Notes: generated by a model not told the origin, from the sequence alone. Positions 17,680 through 31,871 are shown, counted from the first letter of the stretch. The stretch is DNA of 42,091 nucleotides from Candidatus Cloacimonadota bacterium (GCA_028695495.1 JAQVIX010000011.1:1-42091), one strand, 5' to 3'. Numbers and translations: made by a program.

Positions 17680-18042
17680 ATGAGTCATAAGATTCTACTT
17701 GTAGATGATGACAGACTCCTAAGGGAAGTAATGGGTGAATTTCTTACGATGCACGGTTTCAGTGTGGAATTTGCCGAGAGTGCCGAGAAGGCGCTGGAGC
17801 TATTTGAGCCGGGGAAGTTTGATCTTGCCATTGTGGATTTGGTGATGCCGGGCATGAACGGCTTGGAGCTAATGCAAAAGCTGATGGCAGCGGATGCAGA
17901 GCTTTTTTGCCTGATCATGACGGGCTATCCCACCATCGATAGTGCCTATAAATCGATGGTGGAGGGTGCGTCGGATTATATTATCAAGCCCTTCCAGCTC
18001 AATGAACTACTTACGGCATTGAAGCAGCATCTCAAAGAATGA
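17680..18042 (+). CDS. Stand-alone CheY-like response regulator
   Basis: 120 residues, one receiver domain and no output domain. Asp9/Asp10 form the acidic pocket, Asp53 (VDLVMPGMNG) is the phospho-acceptor, Thr81 (MTGYP) the switch residue and Lys103 (IKPF) the conserved lysine. No histidine kinase is encoded nearby, so the phospho-donor is unknown. It probably signals by protein contact. Its stop overlaps the next gene as ATGA, which ties it translationally to the acyltransferase-like gene and to ddl. The weak GGCGG 4 nt before the ATG is not a strong ribosome-binding site. Confidence 0.9.
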   Translation: MSHKILLVDDDRLLREVMGEFLTMHGFSVEFAESAEKALELFEPGKFDLAIVDLVMPGMNGLELMQKLMAADAELFCLIMTGYPTIDSAYKSMVEGASDYIIKPFQLNELLTALKQHLKE

Positions 18043-18965
18043 AATACCGTTTGAGCCTTACCGAAGCCGAGCCTGATATCTTAAAGGAAATACCCTTTCC
18101 TTCCATCCATGGCTATGACTATTGGTACAACCCCCTCTATATGCAATATTTGGGGGAATTGCACGAGATCAAGCCCCTCTTACTAAGGGTATATAAAGGC
18201 GAAGAGCTAATTGCACTCTTGCCGCTATTTGAACGTAAAAAGCTGGGCATGAAAGCCTTAGTGTGCCCCGTGGGAGGCTATTATCAGGGTATTCATCTCT
18301 TTATGGACCCAAATACCTCCTCGCCGCGGGTGCTCTTGGACAATCTCGCCATATCGGAAAGAATAGCCCAGTTTTTAAACAAAGAATACTCCCGCATCAA
18401 TTTCAAACTGTTGCCGGATAATACGGATGTACGTGGCTTTACCTGGAATAAATACAGCGCCCGCCCCATGTACACCTTCCGGCACGATCTTAGCCAAAAC
18501 CTGCACATCCTGCAAGATGAAAAGAAGAGTTTGCGCAAAGCTGCTGCTGCCGGACTTAGCTTGGTGGAGCATTTTGATCCCGACCCCTATTTCAGGATGC
18601 AGGCGGAGCTGGATAAACGCAAGAACCATAGCTTTGGCGTATCTTTCGAGAGCCTGGCGCGCTATTTTGAGAAGCTGCACGCGGCAGATTTGCTAAAGCA
18701 ATATAATGTAATGCAGGGGGATAAAATACTAAGCAGCAATATCATCTATAGCGATGCGGGCAAAGCGGTATATACCGTATTTATGGCGAGCGAACCGGAA
18801 GGGCTAAAGCTGGGTGCCGCCACCTTCCATAGCATCGAGCTTTTAAGTCAGCTTCCACCAAGCTGCCGTATCTTCGATTATTGCGGCGCAAACGTGCAGG
18901 ATGTAGCCCGCTTCAAAGCCGCATTGGGCTTGCAACTACAAGTATTCTTCAATCTCAGCACTTAG
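18039..18965 (+). CDS. FemAB/GNAT-like acyltransferase of unknown substrate
   Basis: 308 residues, soluble. The fold class is suggested by YNPLYMQYL and LLPLF in the N-terminal half and by the C-terminal FDYCGANVQDVARFKAALG. The latter resembles the end of FemAB-like/GNAT proteins that add amino acids to peptidoglycan precursors or modify polysaccharides. The middle basic stretch (SLRKAAAAGL) fits the FemAB pattern near nucleic-acid or lipid substrate binding. Its location, overlapping a receiver gene and 7 nt before ddl, suggests a role in cell-wall precursor modification. That role is inference. Confidence 0.6.
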   Translation: MKYRLSLTEAEPDILKEIPFPSIHGYDYWYNPLYMQYLGELHEIKPLLLRVYKGEELIALLPLFERKKLGMKALVCPVGGYYQGIHLFMDPNTSSPRVLLDNLAISERIAQFLNKEYSRINFKLLPDNTDVRGFTWNKYSARPMYTFRHDLSQNLHILQDEKKSLRKAAAAGLSLVEHFDPDPYFRMQAELDKRKNHSFGVSFESLARYFEKLHAADLLKQYNVMQGDKILSSNIIYSDAGKAVYTVFMASEPEGLKLGAATFHSIELLSQLPPSCRIFDYCGANVQDVARFKAALGLQLQVFFNLST

Positions 18966-18972
18966 GAGCAGC

Positions 18973-19902
18973 ATGAAATCCATCTTGGTACTCAAGGGCG
19001 GCATCTCGCCGGAACGTGAAATCTCGCTCATCTCGGCACAAGCCGTGGGCGAGGAACTAAGCGCCGCCGGATACCGCGTTAGCTATTTAGACCCGCAAGA
19101 TTACCCCAGCCTGGCGCAGCTCTTATCTGCCATCAAAGAGCAAAAAGCAGATATGGTGTTTAACGCCTTGCATGGCGGTAGCGGCGAAAACGGACAATTA
19201 GCCGCTGCGTTGGAACTCGAAGGCATCCCCTTTAGCGGTAGCGGCTCCAAAGCCTCCTATCTGGCAATGGATAAATACCTTGCCAAGCTGGTAGTAGCCG
19301 CTGAGGGCATCCCCATCCCCAAACACCTCATCTTGAGAGCAAACCTATTGGAAGACTACAACGACCCGCAGGATTATAGCGGCTTTGTAGAGAATTATGG
19401 CTTGCCGTTGATCGTAAAACCCAATGACGCCGGCAGCTCGGTAGGCATTAGCAAAGTGGAAGACCTAAAAGAGCTAAAGCCTGCCGTGGAAGAGGCATTT
19501 CGTTATGGCGATAGCGTTTTGGTAGAAGAATATGTTGCCGGACGCGAAATTACGGTTAGTGTATTAAATGGTAAAGCACTGCCAGTAGTGGAAATCCAGC
19601 CCCACGCCGGCTGGTATGATTTCAAAAACAAATACACGAAGGGCAATACGGATTATTTGGTGCCGGCTCCCATAGATGAAGCCACGGCACACTTGTGTCA
19701 GCTATATGCCGAGCGCATCTTTTTTGCGCTATCCTGCTCGGTATATGCGCGAGTAGATTTTCGCCTGCGGGATGGCACTCCATATTTTCTGGAGCTAAAT
19801 ACGCTGCCGGGGATGACTTCGCTTAGCCTTACCCCCATGGCGGCAAAAGCGGCAGGTATCTCTTTTGGAGAGCTGCTAAAAACCATTTTAAAAGATAATT
19901 AG
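18973..19902 (+). CDS. ddl: D-alanine-D-alanine ligase
   Basis: 309 residues, the normal length for the ATP-grasp enzyme that makes the D-Ala-D-Ala dipeptide used by MurF. Family signatures are GGISPEREIS near the N-terminus, HGGSGENGQLAAALE, KPNDAGSSVGISKV (ATP-binding loop), VEEYVAGREITV, and the metal-binding ELNTLPGMTSLSL near the C-terminus. GAGCAGC just before the ATG is a weak ribosome-binding site. It is the third gene of the receiver operon and runs on after 18 nt into the exported-protein genes. Confidence 0.95.
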   Translation: MKSILVLKGGISPEREISLISAQAVGEELSAAGYRVSYLDPQDYPSLAQLLSAIKEQKADMVFNALHGGSGENGQLAAALELEGIPFSGSGSKASYLAMDKYLAKLVVAAEGIPIPKHLILRANLLEDYNDPQDYSGFVENYGLPLIVKPNDAGSSVGISKVEDLKELKPAVEEAFRYGDSVLVEEYVAGREITVSVLNGKALPVVEIQPHAGWYDFKNKYTKGNTDYLVPAPIDEATAHLCQLYAERIFFALSCSVYARVDFRLRDGTPYFLELNTLPGMTSLSLTPMAAKAAGISFGELLKTILKDN

Positions 19903-19920
19903 TAATTTAGGAGGAATGCC

Positions 19921-21015
19921 ATGAAGCGCATTTATCTAATAACGGTGCTTGTGATCTTTACCACCGCCCTTTTGGCGAACTTTAATCTCAGTTTTACGCC
20001 CCGGACGCTTACGGTAAATAGATTTAGCACTTTCGAACTGGACCCTATAAACCCTTTGAATCAACCCAATTATACTACACTTCACATTAGCAATCTGGGT
20101 GAAAGCACGAAGTTTGACCTGGAAGTGCAGATACTTTGGAATACTACCCCCATCATTGGTGAAAATGCCCTAATCTTAAAGAGTACTGAAGTATTTGAAG
20201 CCGGTGGTCAGCTTGATTATAGCAATCAAGACCTGGTAAATAATTCCGGTGGTATCCACTTCAGTGTTTCTGGTAATATCGACATCCTAAAAGCTGTAAA
20301 GAAAGTTCCCAAGCTGGAAGAAGCACTAATGGCGGGCTATTTTCCAGATGGCAAGCTTAGCCTTCAGGTGCGCATTCGCCCGGCAAATACCCGTACCTGG
20401 CAAGAGCCTGCGGCAGTGTTTGCTTTTACCATCAAAAACTCCAGCGCCATCCACCTTCTGGCTCCCGGTGCGCGCATCAATCAGGTGCCTCCCAAGCTCT
20501 CAAACCTGCCTTTGATCTTCAATTGGCATAGCTTTTTGGCAGATTTCAATGAAGAAATCCTGGTGCTCAAAGAGTTCCCGCCTATGCAGATTCCCCAAAG
20601 CCAAAATGTGGAACAGGCTGGAAAGGAAGTATTCCGCATGCCGGCAGTGCATAGCGGCTTTAGCGAATACCTGCCTTTAAACGAAGGCTGTTACTATGCC
20701 TGGCAGGTTTATTCACCCCAACACACCGGTTCAAACCCCTTAGCCGACGCCAAAAACGTCAATAATGCCCCCCGCATTTCCAGCCCCTGGTATGTATTTC
20801 AATACGTAAAAAGCGAACAAGAAGAGCAACAGCATGCGGAGCTGGATAATCTCCTGCAATTCCTGAATAACCCCCTGATTATGAACCTGTTGCTTGCCGG
20901 CTATTCTGCCACTGGCGAGGTAATCCTGGATGGCAGGGTATATAAAGGGCAGGAAGCTTTGGATATCCTCGAAAGCCTGCAAGGCAAGGTGCTCGAGATT
21001 GAGATCAAGGATTAA
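19921..21015 (+). CDS. Exported protein of unknown family
   Basis: 364 residues. It starts with a clear Sec signal peptide (MKRIYLITVLVIFTTALLA, cleavage probably after LLA). The mature part is rich in beta-type, hydrophobic-polar alternation and asparagine (NRFSTFELDPINPLNQPNY), with no motif I recognise. A C-terminal segment (LDGRVYKGQEALDILE) is more helical. It has a strong ribosome-binding site (AGGAGG). It lies 18 nt after ddl and 12 nt before the FecR gene, so it is probably part of the same envelope module. Without a C-terminal barrel signal it is more likely periplasmic than outer-membrane. Confidence 0.7.
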   Translation: MKRIYLITVLVIFTTALLANFNLSFTPRTLTVNRFSTFELDPINPLNQPNYTTLHISNLGESTKFDLEVQILWNTTPIIGENALILKSTEVFEAGGQLDYSNQDLVNNSGGIHFSVSGNIDILKAVKKVPKLEEALMAGYFPDGKLSLQVRIRPANTRTWQEPAAVFAFTIKNSSAIHLLAPGARINQVPPKLSNLPLIFNWHSFLADFNEEILVLKEFPPMQIPQSQNVEQAGKEVFRMPAVHSGFSEYLPLNEGCYYAWQVYSPQHTGSNPLADAKNVNNAPRISSPWYVFQYVKSEQEEQQHAELDNLLQFLNNPLIMNLLLAGYSATGEVILDGRVYKGQEALDILESLQGKVLEIEIKD

Positions 21016-21027
21016 AGGAGCACTATC

Positions 21028-21705
21028 ATGAAGAAGCTAATATTAGTCTGTCTTATCGCAATTTTGGCGCTTAGCCTCTTAAACGCCAATGCCATAGCCA
21101 CTTTGGCAGCATATAAAGGAAAGCTCAGCATTCAGCGTGGTAGCAGCCAGCTCAAATACAAAAACGGCGAGCTTCTGATGAACAAAGACCTGCTGAAAAC
21201 CGGCGATGAAAGCTTTGCCGCCTATAAATATGCCGATGCCAGCACCACGGTAAAGATGTTTGCCAATAGCATTGCCACCCTTAGCGCCAGCAAAAACGGC
21301 AAACAATTGGACAAAAGCGTGGATATAAAACAGGGCAAAGTCCATAGCAGCATCCAAAAAGGCAAAGGCTCTTTTCAGGTAATTACCCCCACCACAGTGG
21401 CATCTGTAAAAGGCACGGAATTCTTTACCCAGGTGGAAGATAACGGCAGAAGCACCTTTGTAGTAAGCGATGGCGAGGTGGAAGTGCGCATCTTGGCTAC
21501 AGATGAAGTAGCCAGAGTAGGCAAAGGCAAAACAGCCATCATCAGCCCCAGTGGCGAGCTGCTTTTGCGCGATACCATGTCCGGCGATCTCAGCCAGATC
21601 GAAGAAGCCGAGCTGGAAGCCGAAGGAAGCGCAGAACCACGCAAAATCCGCATCCCCATGCTGGATGAATTCGGCAATCTCAAATACATCGAGATCAGCT
21701 ATTAA
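21028..21705 (+). CDS. Periplasmic FecR-domain protein
   Basis: 225 residues with a signal peptide (MKKLILVCLIAILALSLLNANA). The mature N-terminal half is a FecR domain: GKLSIQRGSSQLKYKNGELL, LLKTGDESFAAYKYADAST, and TPTTVASVKGTEFFTQVEDNG ... VSDGEVEV. FecR domains are periplasmic sensor/transducer modules, classically linked to anti-sigma factors, but here there is no membrane anchor or sigma factor. The acidic C-terminus (EEAELEAEGSAE) precedes a conserved-looking RIPMLDEFGNLKY end. AAAGGAG upstream, 12-nt gaps to both neighbours. It probably interacts with the barrel or with the CHASE2 domain of the cyclase encoded downstream. Confidence 0.82.
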   Translation: MKKLILVCLIAILALSLLNANAIATLAAYKGKLSIQRGSSQLKYKNGELLMNKDLLKTGDESFAAYKYADASTTVKMFANSIATLSASKNGKQLDKSVDIKQGKVHSSIQKGKGSFQVITPTTVASVKGTEFFTQVEDNGRSTFVVSDGEVEVRILATDEVARVGKGKTAIISPSGELLLRDTMSGDLSQIEEAELEAEGSAEPRKIRIPMLDEFGNLKYIEISY

Positions 21706-21717
21706 AGGAGCAGATAG

Positions 21718-24123
21718 ATGAAAAAGTATCTTTTCGTGCTAATTGCTCTGATTAGCCTAAATGCTTGGGCGGCTATCAGTTCCATGCACATACCTCCTGA
21801 AAGCTTTAACCCGAAACAAGATTTGGAACTAAAGCTGGAAATACTACAGGGCGGCGAGAGCCTGAAGCGCATTACCCTGCAATATCGCCAGGTGCCGGAT
21901 GAAAACTGGCTAAGCAGCCCCTTGCGTGAAGAAGAACCAGGCATCTTTTTCGGATATATCCCCCGCGGTGTTCTTAGCGGCGAAGCCGTTCAATACCGCT
22001 TTGAATTTGAAACCGATAGCGGCGCCAATGAATACTTGCCGGATTCCCGCTCGCTTACGCCATATTACCATCTGGCACTCATGGGCAAAACGGGCACCCA
22101 AAGCAGCGCCTTTATTCGTCTCAATGATGAAGACCGCATTAGCACAGATGATGATTACCTCTTGGTAGTAAGCTTTTTGGAAATTGCCGACGAGCTTGAC
22201 CTCCGCAGCCTGAAGGTATTTGTAGGGGGCAGAGAGGTAACCAATAAAGCCGAAATTAGCGGCGGCACTCTGCTATATCGGGATGAAAATCCTATAGCCG
22301 GCATCGCAAAAGCCTATATCACTGCAAAGCAAAACGGCAGGGACATCCATTCCGAAACCTGGATTACGGAAATCCTACCCGGCACAAAGTCCCGCATTCC
22401 TCTGCATTATAGCGGCTCCATCAATATGGCTGCCAATGCGTATTCCCCCTCGGATAAAACCCTTAGCTTTGGTGATACGCACAACGATTTTGCCACCTGG
22501 AGCGAATTGTACGGCAGCTACGGCTGGTTGCAGCTTAGCTCCAATCTCTATTTTTCCAGCTTGGAAGAAAGCAATAAACAGCCGGTAAACCGCTACAATA
22601 TCGGGCTTAAAATGCCGGTATTGGAAGTAATAGCCGGAGATTATAGCCCCACGCTTTCGGATTATAGCTTAAACGGCAGAAACATCCGCGGACTTCATGC
22701 CAAGCTGGATACCAAACACCTGCGTTTGCACTGGACGCATGGTGAATCCGTGCGCAAAACCCTTGCCAAAGAGGACGCTTTGGGAATAATCGGCAACGAT
22801 TCAAGCTTCAAGCAGGAAGCTATCGGCGCCAAACTTTCCATTGGTGAGGAAGATGGCTTTAGCTTAAATATTATTGCCAGCCGCCACCGCGACCTCAAAA
22901 GCTCTTTAGACCCCAAATACTATCTGCTCGATAGCAGATTCAGAGATGGCGAGGCTGAAGCTGAAGACCCCGCTGCTGAGATTACCCAATACAAACTAAA
23001 TGCCGTGGATGCCGCAGTGGCAGCAGTGGATTTGCGCATTAACGTTCCCGAACAAGATGTGCTGATGGGCGTGGAAGTTGCCGGTAGTCTGTTTAATAAA
23101 AACACCTTACCGGGTGCCTTTTCCGAAGACACCCTGGAGGATTATGGCATAAATCTGCCCATTTCCCCCAGCGATATTGCAGACATCTTTGTAATAAACC
23201 AAAATCTGGAACCCTTTGGGCTTAGCGCCTCAAACCTGGCATGGAAAGTATATGTGCGCAGCTATATGCTAAATAATATGATTAGCGTGGATTACCAGGA
23301 AGTGGGTAATAGCTTTACTTCGCTGGGCAGCTTTGCTCCCCTGCAGGATGCCCGAATCTTAAGCGTAGCCGATCAATTCCACTTGGGCAGATATTTCCTT
23401 TTGAGCGGTTCTTACAATCTCACCAAGGATAACCTGATGGGTTTCAACGAGATCAGTAATCGCTTCCAGGCTATTCAGGCGCAGGCGATCTTACGCATAC
23501 CCAAAATGCCTCAGCTCAAAGCGGCATTCAATTTGGATGGTGCCCAAAACAAAAAGAATACGGAATTGGATGATTTTGATTTCAAGCCCTACAAAGCCGA
23601 CCGCAAAAGCCTGAATATTGGTATGGGCTACAATATCATTCAAATCCCTTATGTACCTACCCAGATTGATCTTGGCTACCGTTTTGGCGACGACTACCGC
23701 AAGGAAATACGAGATAGCACCGCTTATACCATGCTCAGCGAAAACAAACATAATGGCTTGAATATCAGCATGATCAATCGCTTTAAGATCTTGCCACTAA
23801 AAACCTACTTAAGCTATAACAATGGTGAAGTGAAAAACCTCATGGGCGAGACCAGCAAGAAAAACAGCCGCATCTATCTAAAGGCGGAGTATTCGCTCTT
23901 TAACGAGATTCTAAAGCCCTATTTATCAATAAGCAATAGCTCTCTTTCCGGGGATCAGGATACGCAAAATTATAATACCATTGCCCTGGGGCTTACCGCC
24001 TATCCCATCAAAAACATGAATGTAAATGCGGATTACATCCTGCAAAGCTACAAAAACAAAACAAACAGCATCACAGATTATGATAATAGCACTCTCCGGC
24101 TGCTGCTTAGCCAGAGATTCTAA
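21718..24123 (+). CDS. Large outer-membrane beta-barrel protein, unknown family
   Basis: 801 residues. Signal peptide MKKYLFVLIALISLNAWA. Residues ~20-230 form a soluble region of Ig-like/beta character. From about residue 235 the sequence shows long runs of amphipathic strands (for example WSELYGSYGWLQLSSNLYFS and FLLSGSYNLTKDNLMGF). It ends LRLLLSQRF, matching the C-terminal aromatic signature of outer-membrane barrels recognised by BamA. I do not recognise a specific family. AAAGGAG lies upstream and it follows the FecR gene by 12 nt. A strong terminator lies 39 nt after the stop. Confidence 0.75.
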   Translation: MKKYLFVLIALISLNAWAAISSMHIPPESFNPKQDLELKLEILQGGESLKRITLQYRQVPDENWLSSPLREEEPGIFFGYIPRGVLSGEAVQYRFEFETDSGANEYLPDSRSLTPYYHLALMGKTGTQSSAFIRLNDEDRISTDDDYLLVVSFLEIADELDLRSLKVFVGGREVTNKAEISGGTLLYRDENPIAGIAKAYITAKQNGRDIHSETWITEILPGTKSRIPLHYSGSINMAANAYSPSDKTLSFGDTHNDFATWSELYGSYGWLQLSSNLYFSSLEESNKQPVNRYNIGLKMPVLEVIAGDYSPTLSDYSLNGRNIRGLHAKLDTKHLRLHWTHGESVRKTLAKEDALGIIGNDSSFKQEAIGAKLSIGEEDGFSLNIIASRHRDLKSSLDPKYYLLDSRFRDGEAEAEDPAAEITQYKLNAVDAAVAAVDLRINVPEQDVLMGVEVAGSLFNKNTLPGAFSEDTLEDYGINLPISPSDIADIFVINQNLEPFGLSASNLAWKVYVRSYMLNNMISVDYQEVGNSFTSLGSFAPLQDARILSVADQFHLGRYFLLSGSYNLTKDNLMGFNEISNRFQAIQAQAILRIPKMPQLKAAFNLDGAQNKKNTELDDFDFKPYKADRKSLNIGMGYNIIQIPYVPTQIDLGYRFGDDYRKEIRDSTAYTMLSENKHNGLNISMINRFKILPLKTYLSYNNGEVKNLMGETSKKNSRIYLKAEYSLFNEILKPYLSISNSSLSGDQDTQNYNTIALGLTAYPIKNMNVNADYILQSYKNKTNSITDYDNSTLRLLLSQRF

Positions 24124-24161
24124 AAATATGGGGTGTCTTGCCGCCCAGATAAACCTTGTAT

Positions 24162-24195
24162 CCCGTGCAGTGGCAAGAAGCTGCACGGGTTTTTT
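24162..24195 (+). terminator. Intrinsic terminator between barrel and cyclase genes
   Basis: CCCGTGCAG (24162-24170) pairs perfectly with CTGCACGGG (24181-24189) around a 10-nt loop, followed by TTTTTT. It should end the ddl/FecR/barrel transcript. It ends only 18 nt before the cyclase ATG, so cyclase expression must come from read-through, a promoter overlapping this region, or regulated antitermination. Confidence 0.88.
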
Positions 24196-24213
24196 GCCTG
24201 GAAGTCAAGCGTC

Positions 24214-26079
24214 ATGAAAGCTGTATTAAGATTTATCCTATTGCCCCTGGCAATCCTCATCCTGAGCCTGGCACTCTTTCTATCCGCCTTTTTTGCCGGG
24301 CTGGAACACAAAAGTAAGGATAGCCTCTTTCGCCTGCGTGCCCCTCGCCCCCTTAGCGGGGATATCGTAATCATCGCCATAGATGACGCCACGGATAGCG
24401 CCCTGGATACCCGCTGGCCCTACCCCCGCGAATACCATGCCAAGCTGATTGATAATCTCTTCAAGCTGGGCGTAAAGCAAGTGGTATTTGACGTATCCTT
24501 TACCGAATCCTCGCACCCGGAAGCAGATAAACTATTGGCAGATACCGCTTTTTACCATCAAAATACCATCTTTGCGGGCAAGCTACTACGCGCCGAGCGT
24601 CCGGGCGAACCCTCCCGTTTGCAAAGCCCCATCAAAGCCATTCGCAACCATCAGTTAAGCTGGGGTTTGGTAAATATCTCTTCGGATGCGGATAACGTAA
24701 TTCGCCAATACACCCTCTTTGAAAAGCTGGAAGATACGCCACACTATACTATTGGAATCGCCTCGCTGGCAAATGAACGCATCTATCAAAGCGATTGGGC
24801 AGAGCATATCGCAGCGGTGGATGGCAAGCTAAAAGTGGCAGGCAAAAGCATCCCCATCCTGCACCGCAACCGCTCACTGATCAATTATTTCGGTCCCGCC
24901 GGATACTTCCCTTATATTTCCTACTCCTCGGTTTTGGATGATTCCACCGTCAGTATGCCGGGCTATATGGGCATTGAACTGGATGAATATTACGATCTGG
25001 AAGCCAGCGGAGAATTGCAAGGCAAGATCGCCCTCGTGGGCGCCAGCATCGATGAATTGCACGACAATTTCCCCACTCCCCTGGGGGGCAAATGGATGCC
25101 AGGAGTGGAGATTCATGCAAACTTCCTGGAAATGGCGCGCACTGAAGCCTATCTCAATACGCTTTCGCCCTGGCTCAGTGCGCTTATCCTCTTTTGCGTG
25201 TTGCTTATCTTAAATCTGGTCTTCCATTTTCTAAAACCCCAATACAGTCTCTGGATATTGCTTTTGATCTTTGGTGCCCAATACTTTATCGCCTGGGGGC
25301 TCTTTAGCCGGCAGCATCTGCTTATCCCCCTCGCCCAATCCTTTATCGCCTATTTTGCGCTTTATCTCGTTTCGCTTATCTCTCATTACCTGAAATCTCT
25401 CAAGGAGAAACGCTTCATCCGCAGCGCATTCCAACAGTATTTAGCGCCAGAATTGGTGAATGAATTGCTCAAAGACCCCGGCAAAATAAGCTACGGTGGT
25501 TCGCATCAGCATATCTCCGTTCTCTTTAGCGATATCCGGGGCTTTACCACTTTTTCCGAAAAACACGGTCCGCAAGAAACAGTAAACGCTCTGCGCGAAT
25601 ACCTTACTGCGATGGTAAGCGTAATTACCGCCAATAACGGCATTCTGGATAAGTTTGTGGGCGATGCTGTAATGGCGCTTTTTGGCACCCCGCTGCCTTT
25701 GGCAGACCACGCCTTTTCTGCCTGCAAATGCGCTCTGGAAATGCAAAGCCGCTTGAAAGAACTAAATGCCAAATGGCAGGCGGAGGGGCGCGATATCTTC
25801 GAGATCGGCATCGGTATCAATAGCGGTGAAGCGGTGGTGGGAAATCTGGGCAGCGAACAGATCTTTGATTACACCGCCATCGGCGATACCGTAAACCTGG
25901 GCGCGCGCCTGGAAGCAATAAATAAGGATTACTCTACCCAAAGCCAAGTTATCATCAGCGAATACACTTATGAATTGGTAAAAGACAAAGTAATAGTAAA
26001 TTACCTGGATGAAGTAAAGGTAAAGGGCAAGGATATCGCCGTAAAAATATACGAGCTAAGCGGATTGAAAAACGGCTAA
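24214..26079 (+). CDS. CHASE2-domain class III adenylate/guanylate cyclase
   Basis: 621 residues from ATG 24214. An N-terminal helix (4-28) leads into a periplasmic CHASE2 sensor (~35-315). Three membrane helices follow (about 320-340, 345-365, 372-392), then a class III catalytic domain (431-615). Metal aspartates are Asp440 (FSDIRGFT) and Asp484 (FVGDAVMALFG). Lys480 and Thr554 (YTAIGDTVN) occupy base-specifying positions and suggest ATP. Asn561 and Arg565 are the transition-state residues, so the enzyme should be active. It makes a cyclic nucleotide in response to a periplasmic cue. A longer reading from 24133 would run through the terminator hairpin, so I reject it. GGAAG lies 9 nt before the ATG. 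Confidence 0.9.
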   Translation: MKAVLRFILLPLAILILSLALFLSAFFAGLEHKSKDSLFRLRAPRPLSGDIVIIAIDDATDSALDTRWPYPREYHAKLIDNLFKLGVKQVVFDVSFTESSHPEADKLLADTAFYHQNTIFAGKLLRAERPGEPSRLQSPIKAIRNHQLSWGLVNISSDADNVIRQYTLFEKLEDTPHYTIGIASLANERIYQSDWAEHIAAVDGKLKVAGKSIPILHRNRSLINYFGPAGYFPYISYSSVLDDSTVSMPGYMGIELDEYYDLEASGELQGKIALVGASIDELHDNFPTPLGGKWMPGVEIHANFLEMARTEAYLNTLSPWLSALILFCVLLILNLVFHFLKPQYSLWILLLIFGAQYFIAWGLFSRQHLLIPLAQSFIAYFALYLVSLISHYLKSLKEKRFIRSAFQQYLAPELVNELLKDPGKISYGGSHQHISVLFSDIRGFTTFSEKHGPQETVNALREYLTAMVSVITANNGILDKFVGDAVMALFGTPLPLADHAFSACKCALEMQSRLKELNAKWQAEGRDIFEIGIGINSGEAVVGNLGSEQIFDYTAIGDTVNLGARLEAINKDYSTQSQVIISEYTYELVKDKVIVNYLDEVKVKGKDIAVKIYELSGLKNG

Positions 26080-28737: not shown

Positions 28738-29640
28738 CTAATCAAACAAGTAATTATAATCCTTAATAAAGGTCTCCCGCAGCTCGGGATTATTTTCGTC
28801 AAGCCATCTCAATACTCTGCTTTTTATCTTGATGAGATTGAGTGATGATATACCAGCCAAGCCGTCTTTTATCGCGTTATGAGCTGCATCATTTCCATAT
28901 AAAGCAGAAAGCAACATCCAAAAAAATGCTTCATTCAGGTCTTGCTCCATATCGTTTCCTAATATGTATTTAGCTCCGAGGTGAAACATGGCATATTCGT
29001 TTCCCTGTTCAGCTGCCAATTGAAGCAGCAGCATGGCTTCTTTGGGGTCTTTTTTTACCACTTTGCCCTTATCATAACAAAATGCAAGCTCAAGTTGGGC
29101 GTCCGGATCACCTTTGTCCGCCGCTTTCTTGTACCATTGAAAGGCTTCGGCGGGGTCTTTCTTTACTCCGATTCCGCCTGAATATAAAAAACCTAAATAG
29201 AATTCGGCTTCGGTATTTCCTTGATCTGCCGCCTTTTTCATCCAAAAGAAAGCGTTCCTTTCAGATTCTTTACTTGCTTCGCTAATATTTAAATACAATT
29301 CTCCCAGCACCTTTTGAGCGGAGGCATCACCACGCCTTGCACTTTTTTGAAGTAGTTCAAGGGCTTTATCTTCATCTGGTTCTACATGGATTCCAAAGGT
29401 ATATAGTATTCCCAATAATAATTCTGCTGCGGCATATTCATTTTCGGCAGCAAAATTCAATAAGCGTAATGCTTCCTCTGGTTCATGAACCAGGTAATGC
29501 GTAGCGAGCACATAAGATGCTTCCGGGTCTCCAGCATCCGCGCGGGCTTTTAGAGCTTCAATGTTTTCTGGCTCACTTAGCTTTTCAAGTTCGTTCTTCA
29601 AGTCCTTATTATTTTTATTACTTAAGAAGTTTCTATGCAT
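28738..29640 (-). CDS. Sel1-repeat protein, paralogue A
   Basis: 300 residues from ATG 29640, chosen because GGAGT lies 7 nt upstream; a TTG 33 nt earlier has no such signal. The body is made of roughly seven ~36-residue Sel1/TPR-like helical repeats with the motif A(E)xGxxxAxxxLGxxYxxGxGV (for example AEFYLGFLYSGGIGVKKDP). There is no signal peptide, so it is cytoplasmic. Sel1 proteins are adaptor scaffolds for protein complexes. It is a paralogue of the gene at 30999-31871: both end in a similar WxxENNPxL ... LFD tail and share upstream bases (GAAAATTGCTT). The binding partner is unknown. Confidence 0.85.
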   Translation of the reverse strand: MHRNFLSNKNNKDLKNELEKLSEPENIEALKARADAGDPEASYVLATHYLVHEPEEALRLLNFAAENEYAAAELLLGILYTFGIHVEPDEDKALELLQKSARRGDASAQKVLGELYLNISEASKESERNAFFWMKKAADQGNTEAEFYLGFLYSGGIGVKKDPAEAFQWYKKAADKGDPDAQLELAFCYDKGKVVKKDPKEAMLLLQLAAEQGNEYAMFHLGAKYILGNDMEQDLNEAFFWMLLSALYGNDAAHNAIKDGLAGISSLNLIKIKSRVLRWLDENNPELRETFIKDYNYLFD

Positions 29641-29841
29641 GTTTTTACTCCATAATTTATAGTATATTGCCAAGATAGGGAAGCGGCTGAGGCTGTCAAT
29701 GAAAATTGCTTCGCTTCGCTCAGCAGGTATTAGGCGATAGGTGTTAGGTGATAGGGCGCTGGCGCAAGGAGTGAAGTTGCCTTATTGTTTGGTTGCTTGG
29801 TTGCTAAGTGCAAAGGGCTTAGAGTAGAGAGCCTTGCATCC

Positions 29842-30998: not shown

Positions 30999-31871
30999 TC
31001 AATCAAACAAATCTTCAAACTCCTCATCAAAAAGGTCTTGCAGATCAGGATTGTTTTCTTTTATCCATTTTTGCACTCTTTTCTTTACCCTTTTCAGTTC
31101 TTGTTGCCCTAAATCATCTATTTCAAAACTGAGAAGCTCATCCGCCTTTTGATTTTCATGCAAAGCAGCCAGAATTATCCAAAAGATTCCTTCTTCGGAG
31201 TCTTGTTTTACACCATCACCCGTATAGTATTTGCCGCCTAAATATAGCATTGCCTCTTCATTTCCACCTTCTACGGCGGACTTTATTAGGCTAAGAGCTT
31301 TTTCCTTGTCCTTTTTTACTTTGATTCCTTCATCATAATACATAGCAAGTTCAAATTGGGCATCTGGATTTCCCTGGGCAGCGGCTTGTTCATACAATTC
31401 GATTGCCTTTGCCTGGTCCTTTTTTACCCCTCTGCCGGCGGCATAGCTTACCCCCAAACAGTATTGCGCTTCAGCATCTCCCTGAGCCGCTGCTGCGTTA
31501 AACAACTTGAAAGCTTTTTTGAAATCGGTAGTGGGCAAATCATCATAAGCATACATCATTCCCATAATTACCTGAGCTTTGGCAAATCCGCGTTCGGCGC
31601 TTTTTTGCAGCAGTTCGACGGATTTCATCGGATTTGGCTTGACTATGTCTCCATCCTCATATAAGGAGCTCATTACATATAATGCTGCCGGATGATCTTG
31701 CTTTACAGCCATTTCCAGCCAGCGCAGTGCTTCTTTGGGATTGGGTTTTGTGCCAATGCCCTTTAGAAAAGCATAGCCTTGCTTGAATTGGGCATCTGCA
31801 TCGCCTGCTTCTGCTTTTGGGACAAGTTCTTGCATTTCTTCTTTGCTGATTTCTAATTCTAAGTCTATCAT
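30999..31871 (-). CDS. Sel1-repeat protein, paralogue B
   Basis: 290 residues, cytoplasmic, made of seven ~36-residue Sel1-like repeats (for example AEAQYCLGVSYAAGRGVKKDQAKA, given here in shortened form: LGVSYAAGRGVKKD). It is an evident paralogue of 28738-29640: both have a short acidic N-terminus, the same repeat number and a highly acidic C-terminus ending in LFD. AGGAGT lies 7 nt before ATG 31871. Sel1 proteins usually scaffold complexes or act in stress and host-interaction pathways; no partner is evident here. Confidence 0.85.
   Translation of the reverse strand: MIDLELEISKEEMQELVPKAEAGDADAQFKQGYAFLKGIGTKPNPKEALRWLEMAVKQDHPAALYVMSSLYEDGDIVKPNPMKSVELLQKSAERGFAKAQVIMGMMYAYDDLPTTDFKKAFKLFNAAAAQGDAEAQYCLGVSYAAGRGVKKDQAKAIELYEQAAAQGNPDAQFELAMYYDEGIKVKKDKEKALSLIKSAVEGGNEEAMLYLGGKYYTGDGVKQDSEEGIFWIILAALHENQKADELLSFEIDDLGQQELKRVKKRVQKWIKENNPDLQDLFDEEFEDLFD

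Follow-up and report, generated by a model that had tools for sequence, protein, structure and literature searches.

A conserved FecR, outer-membrane barrel and CHASE2 cyclase gene unit as a candidate trans-envelope sensor in Cloacimonadota

The window analysed here is a 42,091-nucleotide contig (G000:C29; GCA_028695495.1, JAQVIX010000011.1:1-42091) of a Candidatus Cloacimonadota genome, and between positions 17680 and 26079 it holds seven tightly spaced genes in one shared direction, REC, FEM, ddl, EXP, FECR, OMB and CYC (Table 1). Its named close relatives are also Candidatus Cloacimonadota metagenome-assembled genomes. Every gene reported in an earlier note on this DNA was found in its place, and the arrangement is more than chance since it is conserved in 42 loci. 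The last four genes, EXP-FECR-OMB-CYC, are a real, conserved and transferable unit in Cloacimonadota, and their possible role in carrying a signal across the envelope is the subject of this analysis. The start of CYC, previously placed at GTG 24133, was moved to ATG 24217 on the basis of homology and alignment. The description of the locus as one tight operon agreed with the same strand and close spacing of the genes, but a strong terminator splits OMB from CYC and therefore CYC is not simply the final gene of a single tight operon. Hairpins with T tracts were present at the OMB-CYC gap in 9 of 22 other loci of the family, whereas in most loci of families f9 and f10 the two genes adjoin directly or overlap.

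Table 1. Features between positions 17680 and 26079 of the window.
Feature	Position	Strand	Profile match	Remarks
REC, lone receiver domain	17680..18042	+	PF00072 1.4e-28	neighbour associated at family level; doubtful part of the system
FEM, FemAB/GNAT-like, family unproven	18039..18965	+		neighbour
ddl, D-alanine--D-alanine ligase	18973..19902	+	NCBIfam NF002378 3.2e-98	frequent neighbour, outside the unit
EXP, exported protein	19921..21015	+		signal-peptide-like N-terminus; tandem Ig/FnIII-like beta-sandwich domains and small helical C-terminal domain
FECR, periplasmic FecR-domain protein	21028..21705	+	PF04773 1.9e-11	FecR domain 21190-21483
OMB, outer-membrane beta-barrel	21718..24123	+		predicted barrel at ~22402-24120, C-terminal Phe
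Intrinsic terminator/attenuator, OMB-CYC gap	24162..24189	+		10-bp stem, 7 G-C pairs, T6 tail
CYC, CHASE2 class III adenylate/guanylate cyclase	24217..26079	+	PF05226 2.1e-46 (CHASE2); PF00211 6.6e-27 (catalytic)	CHASE2 24256-25209; catalytic domain 25501-26052

The AlphaFold model of EXP (pLDDT 85.5) had FnIII and Ig folds as its Foldseek matches, and the gene adjoins FECR in all readable loci. FECR is the sole Pfam FecR match in the genome; it carries a signal peptide and lacks a cytoplasmic anti-sigma region. The OMB model (pLDDT 84.5) predicted 26 barrel strands following two N-terminal beta-sandwich domains, and the C-terminal F801 is invariant. Its closest PDB fold (Foldseek top match) was MtrB (6r2q chain B), which OMB resembles in overall barrel fold and strand number; however, identity was only 12% with a TM-score of 0.40–0.47, and no evidence of cytochrome partners was found here. 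OMB was also considered as a FecA-like receptor, which was rejected as it has no plug domain. CYC begins with one transmembrane (TM) helix, followed by CHASE2, three more TM helices and the class III catalytic domain, giving four TM segments (TM-like stretches at residues 1–31 and 311–388, numbered from ATG 24217). It possesses the two metal Asp, the Asn/Arg transition-state residues and the adenine-type Lys and Thr of a CHASE2 class III cyclase, and the six catalytic residues (D439, K479, D483, T553, N560 and R564, same numbering) are all intact and are conserved in 56–59 of 59 homologues, which confirms the intact catalytic site described earlier.

Orthologous neighbourhoods were read in approximately 70 loci. 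The four genes adjoined one another in unchanged order in the 42 loci mentioned above, which represent nearly every family of the order, and EXP-FECR-OMB was contiguous wherever it was fully readable with the exception of G043, which is without OMB. The comparison of gene order proposed in the earlier note was thus carried out, and the association was not refuted, the order being kept in relatives instead of scattered. A phylum-wide set of 125 genomes had both CHASE2 and FecR in 91, neither in 23 and only one of them in 11 (Fisher 5e-15, without phylogenetic correction). As co-occurrence P values of this kind ignore phylogeny, our argument rests on tree events, namely one block transfer and at least three independent losses of an arginine in a cyclic nucleoside monophosphate (cNMP)-binding kinase.

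Genus g5 has lost CYC from the REC-FEM-ddl locus. G032, G035 and G067 have kept receiver-FEM-ddl-EXP-FECR-OMB, and in these three genomes FECR showed only 25–27% mean identity to other f1 genera in comparison to 41–50% for control loci. DDL, FEM and EXP were near their usual identity, and the decay of FECR after cyclase loss in g5 (25–30% identity against 41–50%) exceeded that of EXP, OMB, FEM and DDL. Only receiver-FEM-ddl is present in G066, G028 and G023, and only FEM-ddl in G072. The cyclase of G043, where OMB has been lost, has its Me1 Asp and catalytic Asn replaced, and the cyclase of G021 also has catalytic residues replaced. In G070 and G071, EXP-FECR-OMB-CYC is found at another genome site without receiver, FEM or ddl, and this block groups with genus g4 with a support of 1.0 in both the EXP+OMB tree and the CYC tree. 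The ddl and FEM genes of these two genomes, plus a second EXP/OMB copy in G071, group with g5, and therefore the four genes were regained by horizontal transfer as a unit with ddl left out.

The earlier statement that no such complete system was known did not hold, as NsrA-CyaK (PMC7529298) and FecR-CHASE2 clusters of Campylobacterota (PMC9239204) and Burkholderiales (PMC5192318) have been published. NsrA and CyaK are an outer-membrane receptor and a CHASE2 adenylate cyclase of the nitrogen-fixing Sinorhizobium meliloti (PMC7529298, PMC13001267), and NsrA, with a barrel at residues 600–1200, is required together with CyaK for signal-dependent responses (PMC7529298). CYC and CyaK are full-length homologues with 31% identity across 597 aa. 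The pSymB gene that overlaps cyaK by 1 base encodes a 1219-aa protein with a FecR domain at 85–179, tetratricopeptide repeats (TPRs) and a C-terminal part whose last residue is Phe, which fits the published description of NsrA and was identified as such on that ground. The FECR profile matched the FecR domain of this protein (hhalign 97%, E 1e-10), and in Rhizobium the same gene type precedes a CHASE2 cyclase. Cyclase matches on plasmids of Vibrio, Gemmobacter, Skermanella, Pseudomonas and Tardiphaga had no annotated FecR neighbour, most of them matching the cyclase domain only, and do not provide a test of the pairing.

Common to the S. meliloti and Cloacimonadota loci is a CHASE2 class III cyclase preceded by an exported FecR domain and a large barrel with a C-terminal Phe. 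In S. meliloti the FecR domain, TPRs and barrel occur in one 1219-aa protein, whereas Cloacimonadota have separate FECR and OMB proteins, no TPR and the extra EXP; the output in S. meliloti is the CRP-type Clr, whereas no protein combining a cNMP-binding domain with a helix-turn-helix (HTH) was found in G000. Because a single-polypeptide receptor, barrel homology and a CRP output were each looked for and not found, the unit was not classified as an NsrA-CyaK member. It most likely works like NsrA-CyaK, as a split version of an outer-membrane-to-cyclase sensor to which EXP has been added. FecR proteins of ~710 aa in Cloacimonadota (L093–L099, e.g. L095:5979-8102) have a C-terminal half that ends in Phe like outer-membrane barrels and are probably FecR-barrel fusions; several are beside TatD-like and ThiF/E1-like genes, with no cyclase nearby. 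FECR and OMB are considered to act together because FecR and barrel are one protein in S. meliloti and apparently also in these ~710-aa proteins. Order-wide synteny, co-occurrence, block transfer and the S. meliloti FecR-barrel fusion beside CyaK all support the proposed association of barrel, FecR and CHASE2 cyclase.

The Campylobacterota cluster contains a CHASE2 cyclase, a FecR outer-membrane protein, a TPR protein and a phosphodiesterase (PMC9239204); from this published description the first two are shared with the window cluster, which is without a phosphodiesterase or TPR gene. The BiofilmReg operon of Burkholderiales encodes a response regulator, a LysM-FecR protein and a CHASE2 histidine kinase, and a FecR-CHASE2 cluster with a histidine kinase output has also been described in P. 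aeruginosa (PMC5192318). BiofilmReg likewise has a FecR gene beside a CHASE2 transmembrane sensor and a response-regulator gene in the operon, but its output is a histidine kinase, LysM is present on its FecR protein and no barrel is described, whereas FECR contains FecR only and CYC a cyclase domain. The order-wide pairing of CHASE2, FecR and barrel in Cloacimonadota suggests that outer-membrane-to-cytoplasm relays of the NsrA-CyaK type are general and not confined to symbiosis, and makes FecR the candidate for the direct CHASE2 partner.

Profile scans of G000 (95% complete) identified three cNMP-binding proteins, none with an HTH, and a PF13545 search for a CRP-type regulator in this genome gave a single weak partial HTH_Crp_2 match in a different ORF. 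One of the three, G000:C129:11293-12399 (L152, P0001), is a soluble cNMP-HisKA-HATPase kinase and the sole cNMP protein with a canonical phosphate-binding cassette (FGEM...PRSA), and this kinase occurs in 49 of 50 genomes of the family and in several other families. Its phosphate-binding Arg was intact in all 29 kinases sampled from genomes counted as cyclase-bearing, a set that leaves out the kinases of G070 and G071, and was lost in all eight g5 genomes for which searches yielded no class III cyclase domain. At least three independent Arg losses were placed on the kinase tree, in G066, in G015 and in a six-species clade that also holds G070 and G071. The correlated loss of kinase pocket and class III cyclase provides an independent handle on the output. 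These results associate the kinase with class III cyclases as a whole, and it presumably reads the CYC product; the likely cyclic-nucleotide receptor in this lineage is the cNMP-binding histidine kinase and not a CRP-type factor. A truncated kinase in G021 was dropped, as the gene runs into a contig end.

Gene content, conservation, co-loss, block transfer and the FecR-barrel linkage in a related system can be interpreted as EXP-FECR-OMB-CYC forming a self-contained trans-envelope sensor that converts a surface signal into a cyclic nucleotide, to which we assign a probability of roughly 0.7; from these observations we infer physical contact between FECR and CHASE2, the direction of signalling, a ligand and the output. 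Detection of an outer-membrane condition or ligand would fall to OMB, through its barrel and periplasmic beta-sandwich domains, together with EXP, and periplasmic FECR would relay the signal to the CHASE2 domain of CYC. CYC would in turn produce a cyclic nucleotide in the cytoplasm, cAMP judging by the Lys/Thr specificity residues, to be read by the soluble cNMP-binding histidine kinase encoded elsewhere. The signal sensed by CHASE2 is not known (PMC5192318).

Several observations weigh against such a sensor. The terminator lies between OMB and CYC in the window, EXP-FECR-OMB is kept without a CHASE2 cyclase in G032, G035, G067 and G039 and is separate from CYC in the f13 genomes read, and CYC is kept without EXP-FECR-OMB in G097 and G055. 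FECR of G039 is well conserved, yet no CHASE2 cyclase was found there. A sequence comparison of OMB with the C-terminal region of the protein encoded upstream of CyaK detected no similarity (hhalign probability 0.2), and sequence homology of the two was rejected. On the output side, most f9 genomes have CYC but no cNMP-kinase at the threshold used, and G070 and G071 carry the transferred cyclase, yet their kinase pocket is eroded and the Arg gone. The Arg is also retained in three g5 genomes whose only class III cyclase is a different one, and therefore the kinase ligand can have sources other than CYC.

Alternatively, EXP-FECR-OMB may be an outer-membrane transport or assembly unit of which the CHASE2 cyclase is merely a frequent neighbour, as these three genes are the most constant part, occur without CYC in several genomes and apart from it in the f13 genomes read, and the barrel fold is nearest to MtrB and not to a signalling receptor. 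That FecR and CHASE2 occur together and are lost together, that FECR decays once the cyclase is lost, that all four genes moved as a block and that S. meliloti shows the same pairing of FecR-barrel and CHASE2, backed by genetic evidence, make this rather unlikely. The FecR domain and large outer-membrane barrel are also shared with FecI-FecR-FecA iron-citrate signalling, in which case the cyclase would be an add-on to a sigma-factor system; such a system is highly improbable given that no sigma factor was found in the ten ORFs scanned, that Pfam finds neither a TonB-dependent plug nor a receptor domain of this type in OMB, which has 26 strands in place of 22, and that FECR, with its signal peptide, is not a transmembrane anti-sigma FecR with a cytoplasmic part.

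The earlier note went further and proposed a module that reports on the state of the cell wall and connects D-Ala-D-Ala supply (ddl and the FemAB-like gene) with a cyclic nucleotide. In agreement with this, ddl adjoins the block in most families on either side (mostly upstream; downstream of CYC in f10), adjoins EXP-FECR-OMB without CYC in f3 and f11 and CYC without EXP-FECR-OMB in G055, G097 and G115, and after the block splits it stays with EXP-FECR-OMB (L105, L106) or with CYC (L078, L107, L147). Burkholderiales FecR proteins paired with CHASE2 kinases also carry LysM peptidoglycan-binding domains (PMC5192318). However, the block has no ddl next to it in f6, in f7 or where it was transferred, and the receiver-FEM-ddl genes (FEM-ddl in G072) stay intact in the g5 genomes without any block gene. 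Receiver and FEM were seen at the block in family f1 and in a single f2 genome and nowhere else. Profile scans of FECR and EXP recognised no peptidoglycan-binding domain, and ddl adjoins an aroA-like gene in several families and so may be no more than a stable housekeeping neighbour. As ddl changes sides, does not accompany the block in several families, remains with FEM after block loss and was not transferred, we regard ddl and FEM as neighbours and not parts of the unit; the D-Ala-D-Ala link is unsupported and was rejected as a necessary part, and the cell-wall version as a whole is improbable.

The sensor could be extended to the operon receiver: barrel and FecR would switch CYC, the cyclic nucleotide would gate the kinase and the kinase would phosphorylate the receiver. 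Such an outer-membrane-to-phosphorelay pathway, in which a second messenger would replace the transmembrane step of a two-component system, is a tentative and somewhat doubtful possibility. The phosphoacceptor Asp of the receiver is lost in G032, G067 and G071 and every g5 copy examined (including L133, L135 and L136) has an eroded DxxMPG motif; receiver decay in g5 does not follow the kinase pocket species by species, and G036 has a receiver and no kinase.

For FEM, no Pfam, NCBIfam or PDB-profile match was obtained, which leaves the 'FemAB-like' label of 18039-18965 without profile support. Its C-terminal GANVxxVARFK stretch bears a possible resemblance to FemAB proteins or acetyltransferases. 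No convincing ddl was found in G015, a 99% complete genome (best match E 1.6e-4). The aroA-like gene, recognised by eye from an EPSP-synthase-like SKSxLNR motif, is beside ddl in family f9 (L109, L118, L119, L125, L126 and L147), which suggests a conserved housekeeping neighbourhood around ddl.

A second CHASE2 cyclase was observed in G000 (C141:1-3600, L155) and in relatives (L100–L103), where it is ~730 aa long. Its exported neighbours are a 216–237-aa protein resembling FecR plus TPR (below the Pfam cut-off) and a 1514–1530-aa TPR/NHL protein. In the class-level relative G115, a periplasmic binding protein (PF13458; L107:4632-5795) follows the ddl-linked CHASE2 cyclase and is a possible alternative CHASE2 partner. 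Two nearby paralogous proteins, judged from their sequences to consist of Sel1-like repeats, are encoded on the opposite (-) strand of the window at 28738-29673 and 30999-31871.

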